IMG/VR virus record: IMGVR_UViG_3300022926_000007
Coordinates: 17,747-81,746 of that record
Source of the DNA: a virus
Strand: one strand, 5' to 3'
DNA: 64,000 nt
Positions 7,832 through 64,000 of the stretch are shown in pieces. How positions within the stretch are numbered: the stretch's first letter is position 1; each line of letters begins with the position of its first letter. The notes below the pieces were generated by a model, which saw only the letters and a list, made by a program, of their open reading frames with translations, had not been told where the DNA came from and did not search any database. The translations under genes and the position numbers were made by a program.

Positions 7832-9417
7832 TACGTTGCCAATGCGATTGCTCTTAAATCTGTTACTCTTGGTGGATAAGCAGGATTAGTTCCTGTCATT
7901 ACCATTTTAATTGCAAATGATGTAAACTCTCCAAGACCATCTACAGTAAATTTTTGTTCATTGTAACTTGTATTATATTCTGGACTATAAGGCGTTTGTG
8001 AACGACTTTCAGAATAATTAATTGTATCGTCTGCTAAACCTGTTGAATTAAAGTAAACATAAGGAATTTCATCAAAAGGTCTACTATCATCAACATGTCT
8101 AATTTTAAATAACATTTTAATATTAGATGTAGGATAATTGTTTGCACTTATTCTAACATCTAATGCTGTTGCTGGGTTATCTAATAAAATTTCTTTTGTA
8201 ATATATTTTGCAGCTGCACTTCCGCCAGTTGCTGATGTTTCATCTACAAAATCTGTTGTGTTTGAATTATTAGGATCATCTAAACGATTTGTAATTAAAA
8301 TCATATTTGCTCTAGCTAAATCAATAACAGGAGAAATATTTTCGTGTTGTGTTGACATTTCAAATTTATATGTTAGTGATTTATTTCCAGCAAAATGAGT
8401 TGTTTCATTTATAGGTGAAGCAACTTGTTGTTGTTCAGTTATATAAAAATTATCATTTGGAACAACTTCATTTTCGGTTTGAGCTACATAAGATGTTTCA
8501 CTGCCGTGTATAGATTGTTTTGAAATTGTTGTAAGTCTATGTGTTACTGAAGTATCTCCAGGATGCATAAACCCTATTTGAGGTTGTACAACTTCAAATG
8601 CGATATTTCTTGTAGCAGTAACAGATGAGCCACCAACACTTCCTGTTGAAGTTGCTGAGTCACCAGATATTGTAATTGTATAACTATCTAAAGTTACATT
8701 TCCAATATCATGCGTACCATTGATAGCACTTCCTAAAATACCGTTATAGTCTGTACCATCAGTTAAACCAGCAATTGTAACTTTATCTGGTTTATCGTCA
8801 TTCATACCGTGATTTGGGTGATTAATTTTTACAATAGAAGGATTTGAACCAAATGTTGATCCAGATCCTGCTGTTTTATTAGTTTCAATAGGATTATTTT
8901 CTAAAGTTTCAGCAGTTAAAGCTGAGTTATTAAATGTTACAGTACCAGTTGTGTTTGTTGTAAAGTTTGCTTTTTTTATTGAGAATTTAATGTCTTGTAG
9001 AGGTGACTCGTTTTGTCCACCTACGTTTTGTGATTTAAATAAAGAGCCAACTGCAGGTTGTTCCGAAACTCGTCTTGAGCCTCCAATAACTGTTTGTCCT
9101 AATTCAGAAACATATAAAACATATTTTGTACTATTTGCTGTTATACCAATAGCATAACTTATACCACCCTTTAAAAATACTGGTGAATCAAAAGTAAATG
9201 TTGTAGCTGTTGTACCATCAGTTGATGTGTTTACATCAGCGGCCGCTTTTGTGACTACACTAAATGGTAATATTTTTGAACCAGGTCTATCTCTATAAGT
9301 TTCTAATAGAGCAACATTAATAGGCTGAATCGTATCTTTTTCACTAAAATATAAGTCTAGTGATGTTACAAAACACCCTTCTTCTACCTGATTTACAAAT
9401 GTTTGAGCTATTGCCAT
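7831..9417 (-). CDS. Baseplate/tail-fibre structural protein, apparent second half of a split DUF4815-type protein
   Basis: 528 aa. The N-terminus IAQTFVNQVEEGCFVTSLDL and the SEKDTIQPINVALLE and PGSKILPFS segments are of the kind that, in DUF4815-type proteins of related marine phages, follow the main body within one polypeptide. Here they start a separate gene whose ATG overlaps the stop of the 1853-aa gene (TAATG). The rest is beta-rich and lacks enzymatic motifs. That this is the detached C-terminal half is inferred from remembered family architecture and would need an alignment. Confidence 0.7.
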   Translation of the reverse strand: MAIAQTFVNQVEEGCFVTSLDLYFSEKDTIQPINVALLETYRDRPGSKILPFSVVTKAAADVNTSTDGTTATTFTFDSPVFLKGGISYAIGITANSTKYVLYVSELGQTVIGGSRRVSEQPAVGSLFKSQNVGGQNESPLQDIKFSIKKANFTTNTTGTVTFNNSALTAETLENNPIETNKTAGSGSTFGSNPSIVKINHPNHGMNDDKPDKVTIAGLTDGTDYNGILGSAINGTHDIGNVTLDSYTITISGDSATSTGSVGGSSVTATRNIAFEVVQPQIGFMHPGDTSVTHRLTTISKQSIHGSETSYVAQTENEVVPNDNFYITEQQQVASPINETTHFAGNKSLTYKFEMSTQHENISPVIDLARANMILITNRLDDPNNSNTTDFVDETSATGGSAAAKYITKEILLDNPATALDVRISANNYPTSNIKMLFKIRHVDDSRPFDEIPYVYFNSTGLADDTINYSESRSQTPYSPEYNTSYNEQKFTVDGLGEFTSFAIKMVMTGTNPAYPPRVTDLRAIALAT

Positions 9418-12400
9418 TATATTGTTCCTCTAGTTTTATTTATTCTATTTTTTTTTATTTTTCCAATCACACGACAAATTGGTTTACCTATATTGTGTAA
9501 TAGACTTCCAATAATTGTTTTCTCACCCGCAAGATATTTTGCCCAATGTGGAACTAAATGTTTTGTAAAGAAGAACGCAATTTTACCAATTTTTGTATTT
9601 GATTTCATTTCTTCAATTAATGGATAAGCCCAAGCGTGATAACCTATCATCAATTCTGGATCATTTAACATAGCCCATTTACCATATTCTTCGTCAAGTT
9701 CCCATAATCGTTTATCTAATAATCCAAGTTCATAGATATAATCACAAAGAACCTTACCACCAGAAGAGCCTTTATTGTGTACTACATATCCGTCAGCGAT
9801 GTATGAATTATCATTTGAAACATTAAAGTTATATAAAGGCAATTGAGGATTGTTGATTACTTTTGAATTAATACTAGTAATTTCAACTAAACCATTGTTT
9901 GTTACAAGTTTATCACCAACTTTTAATTCACCTTTTAATTGTTCATAAAGTTCTACACCATCACGTTCTTTTGTTTTTTCTGGTTTAATAGATTTCCAAC
10001 CTTCTTCTGTCATAAATGGGTGTTCAGAAGTAAAGAAGTAATGTTCATTATCATTAAATGAGTATAATTTTCTTTCAGCCAATAAAGTAGGATCTAATTT
10101 AATAACTGTGTTTTCTTCTTTGTATCCTTTTACTTTATCGCCAACTACAACATCTTCAATATTTTTAAATGTGCCATCAGCCATTGAAACTTTAGTACCT
10201 GCTATGAAACAACTACCACCAATACCAGCTTTATTATCTTTTATAGCTTGAGCAGTTTTTGCTCTTTCTGCATTTCTTTCTTTTAAATCTGAATAAGTTC
10301 TAACATTTGGATCATTATCATCTGGATCTATCCTATCTGGAAGACCATCTTTATCTCTATCTTCCCATCCACCACTATCATTATTATCTGTTCCTCTATT
10401 TGAACCAGAAGATGAACCACCTGAAGAATAAGTTGTTGATGAAGTAATTTCTCTTACAGAATTTTCTTCTAATAGTTTTGTTTCTATAACATCTGGAACA
10501 CGAGTTGCATAAACTGTTTCTTGTTCTGTTACTAACAATCCTTGTGCTCTATATTTTGTAGAAGCAAATGATTCATTATTTCTACCTGTTCTAAAGTTTG
10601 ACTGTGAGTCTGTAATTTTAAATACTCTTTCTCCACATCTCCATTTTGGATTACCACTTACAGATGGATTTGGAATAGCAAATGTTCCTGAAAGTGAACC
10701 ATTAGCATCAGATGTTAATTGTCCACCTAAAGAACCTCCAGTAGGTGTTACATATGAATCAACATCTACATCTTCAAAATAAGCATAATGTTTAGATAAA
10801 GGTTTTAACCCCGTTACTGTAAATGAAATTGTTTTAGACCTGATATAGGGTACATAAGATAAATCAACAAGTCTTTCTCCAAATGATTGTTGAACTACTT
10901 GTGATGATAATTCTCTCTTTAATCCTGAACGTGTAGCACTACCTGTTCTTCCTTCTTTAACAGTTGTTTGATTACCACTATGTGTTTTTTCTATAAATGT
11001 TCCTGTCCAGTTATTTTGCCATTCATTCCATACTGTTCCTGTTCGGTGAGATGGATTTGGAATATCTTTGATACTATTATAAAGTAAATCATTATTTACA
11101 ACTAAATCTGGAGATGTTTTTGTATCTTTCCATTCATCAAATTCAGGTGTGATTTTCATATTTCCAACATATGTAAAAACATTAAATGGATTTACATTTA
11201 CTGTTGTTGTAGCACTTAAATTAGAAACCAATTCTACTTCCGTGTAAGGTAAGGTAATTAAGTCACCTGTTTTTTGATAACCAGCAGCTGTTCTAGCTGT
11301 ATCATTTGTTGCTGTTTCTATCAAAGAAACTTGATCTGTAAAACATCTTGGTCTTACAACACCATTTTCTAAATCCATAGAACATTGATAATCTGAATTT
11401 GTAGTATCTCCTACATTATGACCTTTAAAAGTATCTACTAAAAATCCATTTTTAAATCTGTTAAAACCATTAGCGTCTTGTATTTCTAAATTTAATGTTT
11501 CTTGTTCTAATAAAGATAAACTTGTATAATACTCTAAATTTTTAATTCTACTTTCTAACTTACCAATATCTCTCATTGTATATCTTCTATTATCTACAGG
11601 AATGACTGTAACATCACTTGTACTAAAAGTATATGCAGGTAATCTCAAATAACATAGAATAATAGAGTTATCAATTGTATCAGGTCTTTGAGGATCAACA
11701 GCCGAAGCACCTCTTGCTTGTTTAAACTGGCCACTTGTTGTCATATAGATTGCATCTATACGAGAGAGATAAAATTCAAAATCTGCTCTAAAATTTGATC
11801 CTGGTTTTGGAATATCTACTGAAACAGCATTCGTACCAGTAAAGTTTTTAGCACCTGTTGCATCTTTATCATTGTATCCTATAACATTACTATCATCTGC
11901 AACTCTTGGTCTAAAATCAACACACTCTCTTAACTCTAATGTTTCTCCTTTATTTTCAGATTTAAATGTAGGAATATTTGTATAATCAATCGCATAACTA
12001 TCTACACTAAAATAATCTCCAGCGCCGTGTGTAAAGTAATCAAAATTAATTAATAATTGTCCAGTAGGTACTTGAGAACCTGACTTTAATTTAAGTCTAC
12101 CTAAATCATAAAAATTATCTCTTTGACCATTGTCCAAATCAAATCTATCAGTTATGTTTGTATGTGAAGTAGTAGCAGCAGTTGCAAAATCTGGAGACAT
12201 ATAAACAGAATTTAATTGATAAATGTCTGCCTTACCTAAAGATATTATTGAATTTGTTGCTGTTGCTTCTGTTGTAATACTTGTTGTAGCGCCTGAAACT
12301 AAAGTTTTTAATTTTTCTACTGCAACATTTCTAACTATTGTTGCTGTAAATTTAACTTCAGAGTTTCCATAGTTTGAACCCAAGTCAATAGTTAACTGAT

Positions 12401-14978
12401 TTGAATTACCTGATAATGAAAATATTGTATTACCTTCGTGGTTATTTCCTGATAAAGAAGTTATTTCACCAACTTCACCTGATGATGAACCTGCAGTTAT
12501 ATGCATTAACGCATAATCTCCTGAAGATAACGAAGCAAAAGTTTCATTTGAACCTGCATTAAAAATACCAATACCATCACCTGTTAGAGTCGTAACAAAT
12601 TGTCTTCTAACGGTAAATGATGTGTCAGTTAATCCGTTGTTTGTAGCAGTTTTTAAAGTTTTAATAACTTTTTCTGGTAATTTATAAACTAAAGTATTGT
12701 TTGTTGTTTCTTGTAATTTTGTTCTTCTTCTTTCAACTGGTGAGGCCGTTGTAACATCAGAACCACCTACAGCGGCAGATAATGTTAAACTTGTATCACT
12801 TACAATTGCTAATACAGTAGCAGTTAATTCTTCTCCAGTATTATCAGTAAATACAATTGTGTCCCCACTTATTAATTCTGTTGTAAATTTTGTTCCTTGA
12901 CCAATAACATCAGCACTACTATTTGCTACACTAATAGTTCCTGTTAAAGTATATTGTGAATCATCTGTTGAAGATGTTGCATTACTTGTTAATACTGTAT
13001 CTGCTGTAAACGCTGGTGTATTAGCTTGATAAATTTGTTTTACATTTTTAAAATCATATACAATAACAGATTTAAAATAATTTGTATCTGTAGTTATGAC
13101 TGCTGTATTACTTGAAGTAGCACCTGTAATTGTATCACCAGCAGTAAAAGTTCCACTTTTGTTTGATATAACTACGATACCATTTTGAGCTGTTCCACCT
13201 GAAGTGTAACCACTAAATCCTGAAGTATCAGTAGCAATTGTAAATTCGCTAGCACCTGTAACAATAATTTCATATGTGTTACCATTTACTTCAGTCATAC
13301 CACCAACGCTGTCAAAAGTAACATTTTGTCCTGTTGATAAATTGTGTGATGATGATGTTGTAACAGTTAATAAAACTGCTGATGTTGCCACCATATTTGA
13401 AATAGCAGCTGTAACTGAAGTCGAAGCGGCCTCTACAATACCACTTGCGCCTGATACATTTGTTACAGTTTCACCTGTTGTAAGTGAATGTGCTAATTTT
13501 GTTCTTAAATGTGTAAATGCTGTAATATTAAATAAACCTAATTTATAATTTGATGTAGTATTAGATGATGACGCACCAACTGTACCTGAATTGTATTCAA
13601 AAAATCTAGGATGTGCTACACCTATTTGATGTATGTCAGTACCTACGCCACTATTTGCTGAACCACGTGAAGAAGTCGCTTCTTTATATAAAGATACTTC
13701 TTTATAAGCTTCTGTATCACCAGCAACTGTATCTACATCTGGCGATCCATAAATGTTTGAAACTTCTACAAAATTACCTAACGCTAATCCAGTTGTAGAA
13801 TTATTAACTGTTTTAAAATCTCTGGACTTATCTATTGTAACATATTTTGTAGCTATAGTTTCTAACTCATAACCTTGAACATATGCTTTACCTGATCCTA
13901 ATCCAATAGCTAATCTTGCTTTTGATTCTTCAGCTGTTAAATCAAATTCGTAACGTGGATCTAATACTGTTCCTACTCTTGTTGTATCTGGTCTATAAAT
14001 ACCTCTTTCATATTGAGATATAGTTGAGTCAAAATGATGTTCTCTTACATCAATGTCAAAATTTCTTACAACATAGTTTCCTGATTCATCAAATGTTCTA
14101 CGAGCAAGTGTGTCAGCAATTAAACTATAATCTGTTTTTATAACTTTTGTAATTAAGTTACCATTATCAATTCTTAATAATTCTATAAAGTCATCATCTT
14201 CAGTAGATGTTAAATCTTTTTTAGCAAGTGTTAATGTAATTTTAAATCTATGAGCGCCTGGTGCATTTACATTTGAAGAACCTTGAGCGTTATCATTTAA
14301 AGAGGTATCATCTGAAGGTGTAATTAAACTTTCTGTAATTGTAAATCCAACTTTAAAACTAGGGTTTACAAAATAAGGTTCTAATATTATTGTTTGTGCT
14401 TCATTTTGTACAAAAAATCCATTTACATAATAAATTCCAGCTTCTACTCTCACAGCAGATCCAGTTCCTACTGCATTTGAGTCAATAGGTAATGCTACTC
14501 CATTTGTACCTACTGTAGCAGTTTCACCACCATCTCCTGTTAAAGTTTCTGTACTAACAAATCTATTAATAACTCCAGCACTAGCACCTGTACTTGCTGT
14601 TTTTGTATAGTTGACAAATATTGTTGCGGCTTCTGTATCAGTAGCAGCAGTTGCATTTATAACTTCAGCAACTACACCATTCGTGTCACCTGTAAAAATT
14701 GTACCAATTAAATCAGATACATTTGAAGTTGAAAATGTTGAAAGTTTAACGAAATGATAAGTGTTTATATATTGTATTTCACCAGGAATAACTTGAGCGC
14801 CATCTTTAAATATGTGATCTCCAAATCTTTTAATTTGATTTTGAAGTATTGATTGTACTTGAGTTAATTCTCTTGCTTGAACAGCAAATCCAGGACGAAA
14901 TAAAATTTTATGAAATCTTTTTGACTCTAAATAATCATCAAAGTACGGACTAATATTAAAATCAGTTTTTGTGGCCAT
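9417..14978 (-). CDS. 1853-aa DUF4815-type baseplate/tail protein with a C-terminal Hint domain
   Basis: The N-terminus (SPYFDDYLESKRFHKILFRP, then GFAVQARELTQVQSILQNQI and IKRFGDHIFKDG) matches the DUF4815 family of T4-like phage structural proteins. Residues about 150-1480 are beta-rich structural repeats. Residues 1540-1556 form an Asp-rich calcium-loop-like stretch (DRDKDGLPDRIDPDD). Residues 1590-1735 are a complete Hint/intein-type domain (listed separately), followed by about 118 residues containing a Tyr/Trp-rich globular segment. Length and position between gp8 and the fibre genes support a large baseplate-peripheral protein. The Hint domain may release the C-terminal tail. Confidence 0.88.
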   Translation of the reverse strand: MATKTDFNISPYFDDYLESKRFHKILFRPGFAVQARELTQVQSILQNQIKRFGDHIFKDGAQVIPGEIQYINTYHFVKLSTFSTSNVSDLIGTIFTGDTNGVVAEVINATAATDTEAATIFVNYTKTASTGASAGVINRFVSTETLTGDGGETATVGTNGVALPIDSNAVGTGSAVRVEAGIYYVNGFFVQNEAQTIILEPYFVNPSFKVGFTITESLITPSDDTSLNDNAQGSSNVNAPGAHRFKITLTLAKKDLTSTEDDDFIELLRIDNGNLITKVIKTDYSLIADTLARRTFDESGNYVVRNFDIDVREHHFDSTISQYERGIYRPDTTRVGTVLDPRYEFDLTAEESKARLAIGLGSGKAYVQGYELETIATKYVTIDKSRDFKTVNNSTTGLALGNFVEVSNIYGSPDVDTVAGDTEAYKEVSLYKEATSSRGSANSGVGTDIHQIGVAHPRFFEYNSGTVGASSSNTTSNYKLGLFNITAFTHLRTKLAHSLTTGETVTNVSGASGIVEAASTSVTAAISNMVATSAVLLTVTTSSSHNLSTGQNVTFDSVGGMTEVNGNTYEIIVTGASEFTIATDTSGFSGYTSGGTAQNGIVVISNKSGTFTAGDTITGATSSNTAVITTDTNYFKSVIVYDFKNVKQIYQANTPAFTADTVLTSNATSSTDDSQYTLTGTISVANSSADVIGQGTKFTTELISGDTIVFTDNTGEELTATVLAIVSDTSLTLSAAVGGSDVTTASPVERRRTKLQETTNNTLVYKLPEKVIKTLKTATNNGLTDTSFTVRRQFVTTLTGDGIGIFNAGSNETFASLSSGDYALMHITAGSSSGEVGEITSLSGNNHEGNTIFSLSGNSNQLTIDLGSNYGNSEVKFTATIVRNVAVEKLKTLVSGATTSITTEATATNSIISLGKADIYQLNSVYMSPDFATAATTSHTNITDRFDLDNGQRDNFYDLGRLKLKSGSQVPTGQLLINFDYFTHGAGDYFSVDSYAIDYTNIPTFKSENKGETLELRECVDFRPRVADDSNVIGYNDKDATGAKNFTGTNAVSVDIPKPGSNFRADFEFYLSRIDAIYMTTSGQFKQARGASAVDPQRPDTIDNSIILCYLRLPAYTFSTSDVTVIPVDNRRYTMRDIGKLESRIKNLEYYTSLSLLEQETLNLEIQDANGFNRFKNGFLVDTFKGHNVGDTTNSDYQCSMDLENGVVRPRCFTDQVSLIETATNDTARTAAGYQKTGDLITLPYTEVELVSNLSATTTVNVNPFNVFTYVGNMKITPEFDEWKDTKTSPDLVVNNDLLYNSIKDIPNPSHRTGTVWNEWQNNWTGTFIEKTHSGNQTTVKEGRTGSATRSGLKRELSSQVVQQSFGERLVDLSYVPYIRSKTISFTVTGLKPLSKHYAYFEDVDVDSYVTPTGGSLGGQLTSDANGSLSGTFAIPNPSVSGNPKWRCGERVFKITDSQSNFRTGRNNESFASTKYRAQGLLVTEQETVYATRVPDVIETKLLEENSVREITSSTTYSSGGSSSGSNRGTDNNDSGGWEDRDKDGLPDRIDPDDNDPNVRTYSDLKERNAERAKTAQAIKDNKAGIGGSCFIAGTKVSMADGTFKNIEDVVVGDKVKGYKEENTVIKLDPTLLAERKLYSFNDNEHYFFTSEHPFMTEEGWKSIKPEKTKERDGVELYEQLKGELKVGDKLVTNNGLVEITSINSKVINNPQLPLYNFNVSNDNSYIADGYVVHNKGSSGGKVLCDYIYELGLLDKRLWELDEEYGKWAMLNDPELMIGYHAWAYPLIEEMKSNTKIGKIAFFFTKHLVPHWAKYLAGEKTIIGSLLHNIGKPICRVIGKIKKNRINKTRGTI
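9774..10211 (-). other. Hint (intein-like) domain inside the DUF4815-type protein
   Basis: Residues 1590-1735 of the host protein, 146 aa, the size of a mini-intein without homing endonuclease. Block A is C1590-FIAGTKV followed by GD(K)V; block B carries TSEHPF (the TxxH motif); block F is LYNFNVSNDNSYIADG; block G ends YVVHN (N1735). The flanking +1 residue is Lys, not Cys/Ser/Thr, so canonical splicing is not expected; bacterial-intein-like domains with other +1 residues can cleave. All catalytic Hint residues are otherwise present. Confidence 0.88.
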
Positions 14979-52194: not shown

Positions 52195-52457
52195 TATATA
52201 ATCTCACCCTTAAAGTTTACTTTTCCCATATCAGCAAAAAACTCTACTAATTGATTATAACCACCAACTAGTTTACCATCAATTTTAATTTGTGGCATAG
52301 TTCTTACTTGTTTACCTATGTCTTCTAACATAGCTTGAGGAGAGTCAAACTCTTCCATCTTTTTTTCTGTATATTCATAACCTAAAGACTTAACCAAATG
52401 TTTAGCCTTATTACAAAATGTACAGTTTTGTTTACTGTATATTATTATTTCCATCAT
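52194..52457 (-). CDS. Glutaredoxin
   Basis: 87 aa, thioredoxin fold. Active site CTFC (positions 12-15), cis-proline TMPQIKIDG, and GGYNQLVEFF at the glutathione-binding end. Probably the electron donor for the class I ribonucleotide reductase encoded downstream. Either of two tandem ATGs may be the start; it overlaps the lipoprotein gene by 26 bases. Confidence 0.92.
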   Translation of the reverse strand: MMEIIIYSKQNCTFCNKAKHLVKSLGYEYTEKKMEEFDSPQAMLEDIGKQVRTMPQIKIDGKLVGGYNQLVEFFADMGKVNFKGEII

Positions 52458-53049
52458 CTTTACCTATTAAGTTATCGTAAGCGATTTGAGCCTTCTCTTT
52501 TACATTATAAGCGTCAACAGCTTCAGCAATTGTGAAGTTATACATTTTATTGTATTCGCCCATTGGTAATCTTAAACCAATCCAACTTCTATAATAACCT
52601 TGTTTAGTTATAGTTACATCTTTAGCAAATATTTCATAACCTCTAACTGGTGTATCTTTAATTAAGTTTACAATCGTACTCTCAACTTCGGATACTGTAG
52701 TTTTTGTATGAGTCTTTCCCAATTCAGTAATGAATTGTTTGGAAGATTTATTCATTTCTCCTTTAATAATGTCAGCCATTTCTGCTTTAGCAATCATCAT
52801 AGCTTTTTCAATTGATAATGCCAAGTCTGGCGATACGGCTGTACCAACACCAAAGATACACATTTTATCTTTGTCTTTACCAAAAGTAGGTGTATCACAC
52901 GCTTTCTTATCTGAAAAGTCATTCATATACCATTTTGGCACTTGATTTAAAACTTTACCTTTTTCACTTTTCATCTTATATGTCGCTGAACAGTTAGCCA
53001 CTAATAGGCCTGCTACAACAACTGTAAGTAGTTTTTTCATTTTATTCAT
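52432..53049 (-). CDS. LPP20-like lipoprotein
   Basis: 205 aa. Lipobox LLVANCS (Cys at residue 20) after a typical signal. The mature part, VPKWYMNDF...CIFGVGTAV...ALSIEKAMMIAKAEMADII, follows the LPP20 family pattern (W-Y after VP, FGVG, an Ala-rich helix). Likely inserted in the outer membrane of the infected cell; role unknown. Own strong promoter. Confidence 0.75.
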   Translation of the reverse strand: MNKMKKLLTVVVAGLLVANCSATYKMKSEKGKVLNQVPKWYMNDFSDKKACDTPTFGKDKDKMCIFGVGTAVSPDLALSIEKAMMIAKAEMADIIKGEMNKSSKQFITELGKTHTKTTVSEVESTIVNLIKDTPVRGYEIFAKDVTITKQGYYRSWIGLRLPMGEYNKMYNFTIAEAVDAYNVKEKAQIAYDNLIGKDDGNNNIQ

Positions 53050-63421: not shown

Positions 63422-63622
63422 TTATGCTGACTTTAACATTGATCTTAAATACTGTAATCTTCTTTCTTTAAATAACTTAATTAAAGTCTTTTTTCTCCTA
63501 CGTAACTTTTGTTTCTTAATTTTGAGCCAATGTAAATTGAGTAAATATAATTTTCTTTTTTTATCATTTCTTATTATCCTTTTTGCTATTAGTCTTAACT
63601 TTCTTTTTTGAAGTAAGGTCAT
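63422..63622 (-). CDS. Very basic small protein
   Basis: 66 aa with about 27 Lys/Arg (MTLLQKRKLRLIAKRIIRND at the start). It overlaps the 3' end of the cyclase gene by 59 bases. The charge suggests nucleic-acid binding; may also be an artefact of an AT-rich tail, hence moderate confidence. Confidence 0.45.
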   Translation of the reverse strand: MTLLQKRKLRLIAKRIIRNDKKRKLYLLNLHWLKIKKQKLRRRKKTLIKLFKERRLQYLRSMLKSA

Positions 63623-64000
63623 AGTTCTCCATTAAGTTTGTTACTGGTTTATAAATGGTTACTAACTCATCTTTACCCTTAACCTTAATTTTATCTAACT
63701 CTATTGACTTAATATTTTTGAGTTGCTCTTTTGTATAAGAAGAATAAATCAAAGGTGTAACCTTTCCATTTTCATCTTTATAATTTCTTGTAGCAGCTTC
63801 AAGTCTAGCTGCCAAGTTTACAGCGTCACCTACAACAGAATAATCTAATCGGTTTTCACTACCCATATTACCTACAATACAAGTTCCTGTGTTTACACCT
63901 GAACCTATGTTTATATCAGGAAGACCTTTCTCCCTAAATTCTTTTTTTAACTTTTCAGTTTCTTCAGCACATTCTATACCTGTCTTTACAGCCATCTCGG
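63564..64000 (-). CDS. Class III adenylate/guanylate cyclase, C-terminal part (truncated by window edge)
   Basis: The frame is open to the right edge, so the N-terminal part is missing. The visible 143+ residues hold the second half of the catalytic domain: INIGSGVNTGTCIVGNMGSE, then RLDYSVVGDAVNLAARLEAA. Counting from the first visible Met, the metal/adenine-side GDAVN (D57) and transition-state N60 and R64 are present, as in active adenylate cyclases. The tail is Lys-rich. A phage cyclase would change host cAMP signalling (inference). Confidence 0.9.
   Translation of the reverse strand, partial: EMAVKTGIECAEETEKLKKEFREKGLPDINIGSGVNTGTCIVGNMGSENRLDYSVVGDAVNLAARLEAATRNYKDENGKVTPLIYSSYTKEQLKNIKSIELDKIKVKGKDELVTIYKPVTNLMENYDLTSKKKVKTNSKKDNKK

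Follow-up and report, generated by a model that had tools for sequence, protein, structure and literature searches.

A CHASE2-class III adenylate cyclase as the probable signalling arm of a curli module in marine phages

We analyzed a stretch of 64,000 nucleotides (hereafter the window) from the viral record IMGVR_UViG_3300022926_000007 and found, at its very end, part of a gene for what is probably an envelope-sensing adenylate cyclase, with a CHASE2 sensor joined to a class III catalytic domain, that serves as the signalling arm of a curli (type VIII secretion) module belonging to the phage itself. This reading joins what we computed (domain order, an intact active site, purifying selection, curli and FecR genes that always accompany the cyclase, and occurrence in a marine phage group that includes SAR11 isolates) to what we infer (that the enzyme is active, what its sensor binds, and how cAMP affects the infected cell). 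Why phages of the most abundant bacteria in the ocean carry curli genes is an unsolved puzzle, for which sibling capture, uptake and timed lysis have been proposed (PMC7029224, PMC9004378). A membrane cyclase constantly beside these genes would mean that the curli system is under surveillance and probably sends signals back.

Table 1. Features at the end of the window (window positions).
Feature	Position	Strand	Remarks
3' part of CHASE2-transmembrane-class III adenylate cyclase gene	63564..63998	-	Open reading frame running from 63998 to a stop at 63564; 144 of ~637 residues; 5' end cut (open)
Motif S-V-V-G-D-A-V-N-L-A-A-R	63804..63839	-	Purine-site Ser, transition-state Asn (63816-63818), Arg (63804-63806)
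Record end	63999..64000	.	81,746-bp record; the remaining cyclase sequence, and the curli genes expected there, are past this point

The fragment matched PF00211 (profile positions 90-178; 34.6 bits, cut-off 21.9), PHROG 35576 (E=9e-58) and class III cyclases of known structure (E-values down to 5e-13). These matches are far above chance and identify it, at the level of sequence, as the C-terminal part of a class III nucleotide cyclase. Because the window covers positions 17747-81746 of a record of 81,746 bases, its end is also the end of the contig, and the data themselves lack the sensor together with half of the catalytic domain. The sensor part, placed outside the window by the initial annotation, is cut off by the record end too and not by the window alone. 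The record is classed as linear and, when searched as a whole, held a single cyclase match and no CsgG elsewhere in its 81,746 bp. Next to the cyclase lie phage-type genes for a 145-aa protein, a primase and a ribonucleotide reductase, and four independent contigs (L002-L005) have the same three genes next to their cyclase, at 78-95% DNA identity. The ribonucleotide reductase was 84% identical to that of Pelagibacter phage Mosig and 77.5% identical to that of HTVC008M. When the surroundings of the cyclase gene were scanned for promoters and terminators, no score rose above shuffles.

Two other genes of the window, both on the minus strand, deserve mention in their own right. A 1,853-aa protein with DUF4815 (9417-14978) shows weak, sub-cut-off Hint-type matches at about residues 1589-1692 and possibly contains an intein-like or Hint domain, and a 205-aa predicted lipoprotein with no Pfam match (52432-53049) sits amid small membrane or secreted proteins.

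The full-length protein can be read from close relatives. L002-L005 are 97% identical to the window fragment, and L008 is 99% identical over 124 residues; relatives at 97-99% identity are 637 residues long and consist of an N-terminal helix, CHASE2, three helices, a short linker and PF00211. In L002, CHASE2 (PF05226) scored 144 bits over residues 16-322 and PF00211 scored 64.7 bits over residues 421-607 (cut-off 21.9). The position of CHASE2 between the N-terminal helix and three more helices was found in L002, L082, L083 and L336, as well as in an AlphaFold2 model built from an alignment of 21 sequences with the Melnitz row left out (mean pLDDT 84.9; helices at residues 2-24, 308-328, 331-356 and 363-395). 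The predicted cyclase domain superposes on CyaB (3r5g) with a TM-score of 0.87 on target at 2.1 A, and also on CyaC. An earlier guess that the missing part would hold a CHASE2 and membrane-helix sensor is thus borne out in the relatives, and the proposed identity as a phage class III adenylate cyclase agrees with PF00211, PHROG 35576 and the residues that the relatives carry.

It had also been stated that the catalytic Asp, Asn and Arg are intact. Asn and Arg can indeed be read in the window, where they sit in DYSVVGDAVNLAAR as Asn61 and Arg65 of the fragment, and the window motif DYSVVGDAVNLAARLE carries the purine-site Ser together with both; the motif was aligned with CyaB and OaPAC, and all 67 copies tallied of type A, the window's type, conserve it. 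The statement does not stand as worded for Asp, since the metal-binding Asp429 and Asp477 (L002 numbering) lie upstream of the fragment, those Asp that can be seen in the window are others, and the coincidence of window end and contig end makes the metal-binding pair unreadable in this copy. A lack of metal-binding Asp upstream, named at the outset as evidence against the cyclase, was not what the relatives revealed: each full-length type A relative that we checked has both. Type A conserves Asp429, Lys473, Asp477, Ser547, Asn554 and Arg558 (L002 numbering). Since Lys473 occupies the purine-selecting position, which is Glu in the guanylyl cyclase Cya2 and Lys in the adenylate cyclase construct 6fht, this adenine-specifying residue points to ATP as the substrate. 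With dN/dS values of ~0.04-0.14 in the cyclase part and 0.12-0.26 in the sensor part, purifying selection is strong on the cyclase and weaker on the sensor.

Among phage isolates, the cyclase and the pelagimyophage-type CsgG have the same distribution: HTVC008M, a Pelagibacter phage, and Melnitz, a Methylophilales phage. In both, the genes run in the order csgF, csgG, curlin, fecR, curlin, cyclase, with the cyclase last. Nearer to the window, L008 contains this whole cluster and L002 has a curlin-repeat gene directly upstream of the cyclase. We assessed type A linkage in IMG/VR contigs related to the window and in the two isolates, each with >5 kb upstream: fecR and curlin were present in 18/18 loci and csgG in 17/18, the exception beginning inside the cluster at a contig end. 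Type B, which has a shorter CHASE2, was accompanied by csgF, csgG and fecR in all 31 of its loci, with the curli operon co-directional with the cyclase in 15 and divergent in 16, while type C (the Melnitz type) had fecR and curlin in 49/49 loci. These counts are not independent events, because IMG/VR contigs are partly redundant and some are near-copies, and linkage that persists through inversion is the stronger point. We assign the window gene to the curli cluster as well, a membership read from its relatives, since its own record ends before the cluster.

In 25/80 database loci, most of them bacterial, the CHASE2 cyclase has a FecR gene beside it; in Tardiphaga a large cadherin-type protein that includes a FecR domain is encoded a short way upstream. 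When the other database loci beside CHASE2 cyclases were checked, curli genes were found nowhere outside probable phage contigs. The pairing of FecR with a CHASE2 cyclase is thus widespread in bacteria, whereas the curli link is a trait of phages, in agreement with Wittmers et al. 2022 (PMC9599517). One 142-kb contig in a Sphingobacteriales bin (L089) carries a complete csgF-csgG-curlin-fecR-curlin-cyclase cluster at 41% identity and is probably a misbinned phage genome.

The description of cyclases as rare in phages holds for cultured phages, among which 8 of 50,697 records had a cyclase match (2 of these mislabelled by name), but fails in the sea, where relatives are encoded on at least 581 IMG/VR stretches. 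The HTVC008M cyclase (AGE60353) is 84% identical over the window's part. CAKLQH020000011.1, named 'Acinetobacter phage MD-2021a', was ruled out as a phage, its neighbours mfd, hscA and iscS being those of a bacterial chromosome, and CAKLQF020000009.1, which bears the same name, is probably bacterial DNA likewise. We treated L085-L088 (the best matches in the genome collection), L335 and L336 as phage contigs in bins because much of their gene content is common to phage loci. L335 (G325:C11) and L336 (G299:C1), each with csgG and a CHASE2 cyclase, lie inside two SAR11-family genome bins; L336 bears terminase- and portal-like genes and is podophage-like.

Sensor and cyclase do not always share a history. 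In L017 (977-2710), the sensor is of type B (nearest relative 86% identical) and is fused to a type A cyclase at KQQIRKQFEKYLDP; phylogenetic trees place the sensor with L166 and L171 and the cyclase with L009, each at a support of 100/98. L205 and L207 form a second such mismatch, and type C sensors are nested among type A sensors while type C cyclases fall on a very long branch. Sensor and cyclase are therefore exchanged between phages as units at one linker junction. Among the type C cyclases (L245-L324, Melnitz-type), Ser replaces the catalytic Asn in all 67 copies with a readable motif, in a domain that is 75-99% identical; to judge from this substitution, the type C cyclase would be either inactive or chemically different.

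On the host side, we sampled 78 genomes (0.8-1.6 Mb) of the family to which two genomes belong that exactly match a SAR11 16S probe. A class I cyclase was found in 0/78 of them and a class III cyclase in 2/78, both times on contigs with csgG and other phage-like genes, so the sampled SAR11-family genomes are without a cyclase of their own. The cNMP-binding domain occurred in 5/78 genomes and a CRP-type HTH above the cut-off in 1/78; HTH_Crp_2 matches in 16 genomes lay below the curated cut-off and were discounted as general helix-turn-helix matches. Neither HTVC008M nor Melnitz, the two phage genomes searched, had a cNMP-binding domain. By the receptor families searched, the SAR11 family, including known hosts, thus seems almost without cAMP readers. 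This shortage does not prove their absence and should be taken as a gap, because some genomes may be incomplete and only certain receptor families were covered.

The mechanism that we propose has the cyclase anchored in the inner membrane, with CHASE2, which lies between helix 1 and the final three helices, on the non-cytoplasmic side. There, CHASE2 would sense the state of curli export (the CsgG pore or the fibre) or its partner FecR and would set the activity of a dimeric cytoplasmic cyclase that turns ATP into cAMP. In Sinorhizobium, CHASE2 cyclases are activated through the outer-membrane barrel NsrA, and CyaD1 without CHASE2 is constitutive (PMC13001267, PMC5498481); by analogy, the phage enzyme probably reads the CsgG pore, fibre or FecR state and sets cAMP. 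Several observations weigh against this reading. The window copy is without its 5' three quarters and without curli genes, both of which were taken from relatives; the search brought up no cAMP reader, a cNMP-binding domain occurring in only five of the 78 SAR11-family genomes and in neither HTVC008M nor Melnitz; the Melnitz clade retains the curli linkage though its catalytic Asn is Ser; and the Sinorhizobium FecR-domain gene near cyaD1 is not required for signal perception (PMC5498481).

Since the host family seems to be without cAMP readers, the cyclase must either have a target not yet recognised or have an important output other than cAMP. A bolder and more doubtful possibility is that the phage carries a complete sensor-to-messenger circuit into a host with no recognised means of making or reading cAMP, in which interchangeable CHASE2 modules would tune the circuit to different curli fibres; a protein of the phage or of the host, so far unrecognised, would then have to act as the reader, unless the messenger acts elsewhere. 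Unlikely, in our judgment, is a free-standing auxiliary metabolic gene whose cAMP reprogrammes host metabolism, as the initial annotation had suggested, with the curli genes nearby through an accident of shared acquisition. Host-altering genes are frequent in phages, and an intact active site under purifying selection would suit this role, but the curli linkage withstands rearrangement in type B and recurs in both myophages and podophage-like contigs (L336). A gene fixed in the curli/T8SS cluster, in phages whose known hosts fall in a family with neither class I nor its own class III cyclases and with CRP-type regulators missing from nearly all genomes, does not support the metabolic proposal.

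We regard as less probable again that the protein is a sensor scaffold, no longer catalytic, whose signalling depends on binding alone. The Melnitz-type domain, well conserved despite its uniform Asn-to-Ser change, is what such a scaffold might look like; the window's type, however, keeps every catalytic residue at the low dN/dS given above. There is very little to recommend a counter-defence or defence device, whether one that disturbs nucleotide-based immunity, as was also suggested at the outset, or a Pycsar-type pyrimidine cyclase. Although PADLOC PycC models match L002 at 85 bits, ordinary bacterial CHASE2 cyclases taken as controls score higher on the same models (93-103 bits), the adenine-type Lys is present, and the fixed neighbours are curli genes and not effectors; the PycC identity was rejected on these grounds, and interference with defence gains no support. 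Finally, the gene lies at a contig edge, and the 'Acinetobacter phage MD-2021a' match, where opened, proved to be mislabelled bacterial DNA, yet phage-type neighbours recur beside the cyclase in the independent contigs L002-L005 and HTVC008M holds the 84% identical copy, so that an assembly artefact or bacterial contamination is barely conceivable. We therefore favour the cyclase as the signalling arm of the phage curli module.

Parts of this system were known. Pelagiphage curli genes were published before the cyclase (PMC7029224), the HTVC008M annotation already names the cyclase, and an adenylate cyclase in pelagiphage T8SS/curli modules was reported by Wittmers et al. 2022 (PMC9599517). Their pelagiphage enzyme, including AGE60353 of HTVC008M, is the same gene in the same csgF-csgG-curlin-fecR-curlin-AC order. 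A word search of the text of that paper returned no mention of CHASE2, and module exchange, the Asn-to-Ser clade and the SAR11 receptor gap were not found in the sections examined; within the limited literature searched, these and the CHASE2 architecture are apparently new.

Among bacterial systems, Sinorhizobium meliloti CyaD1, CyaD2 and CyaK likewise join a CHASE2 sensor to a class III cyclase, cyaD1 adjoins a FecR-domain gene, and the signal comes via an outer-membrane barrel (PMC5498481, PMC13001267). In contrast with the phage cluster, the Sinorhizobium CHASE2 cyclases are without curli genes and act via the CRP-type Clr, which is apparently absent from SAR11 and from both phage genomes searched. 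A Burkholderia operon tied to biofilm formation resembles the phage arrangement in combining a periplasmic FecR-domain protein with a CHASE2 sensor, but its output is a histidine kinase rather than a cyclase (PMC5192318). CyaB of Pseudomonas aeruginosa (3r5g) and CyaC of Spirulina (1wc1) share with the modelled phage enzyme the class III fold and active-site residues (TM-score 0.85-0.87 on target), whereas their sensor domains differ, and the purine-site position is Thr in CyaB and Ser in the phage cyclase.
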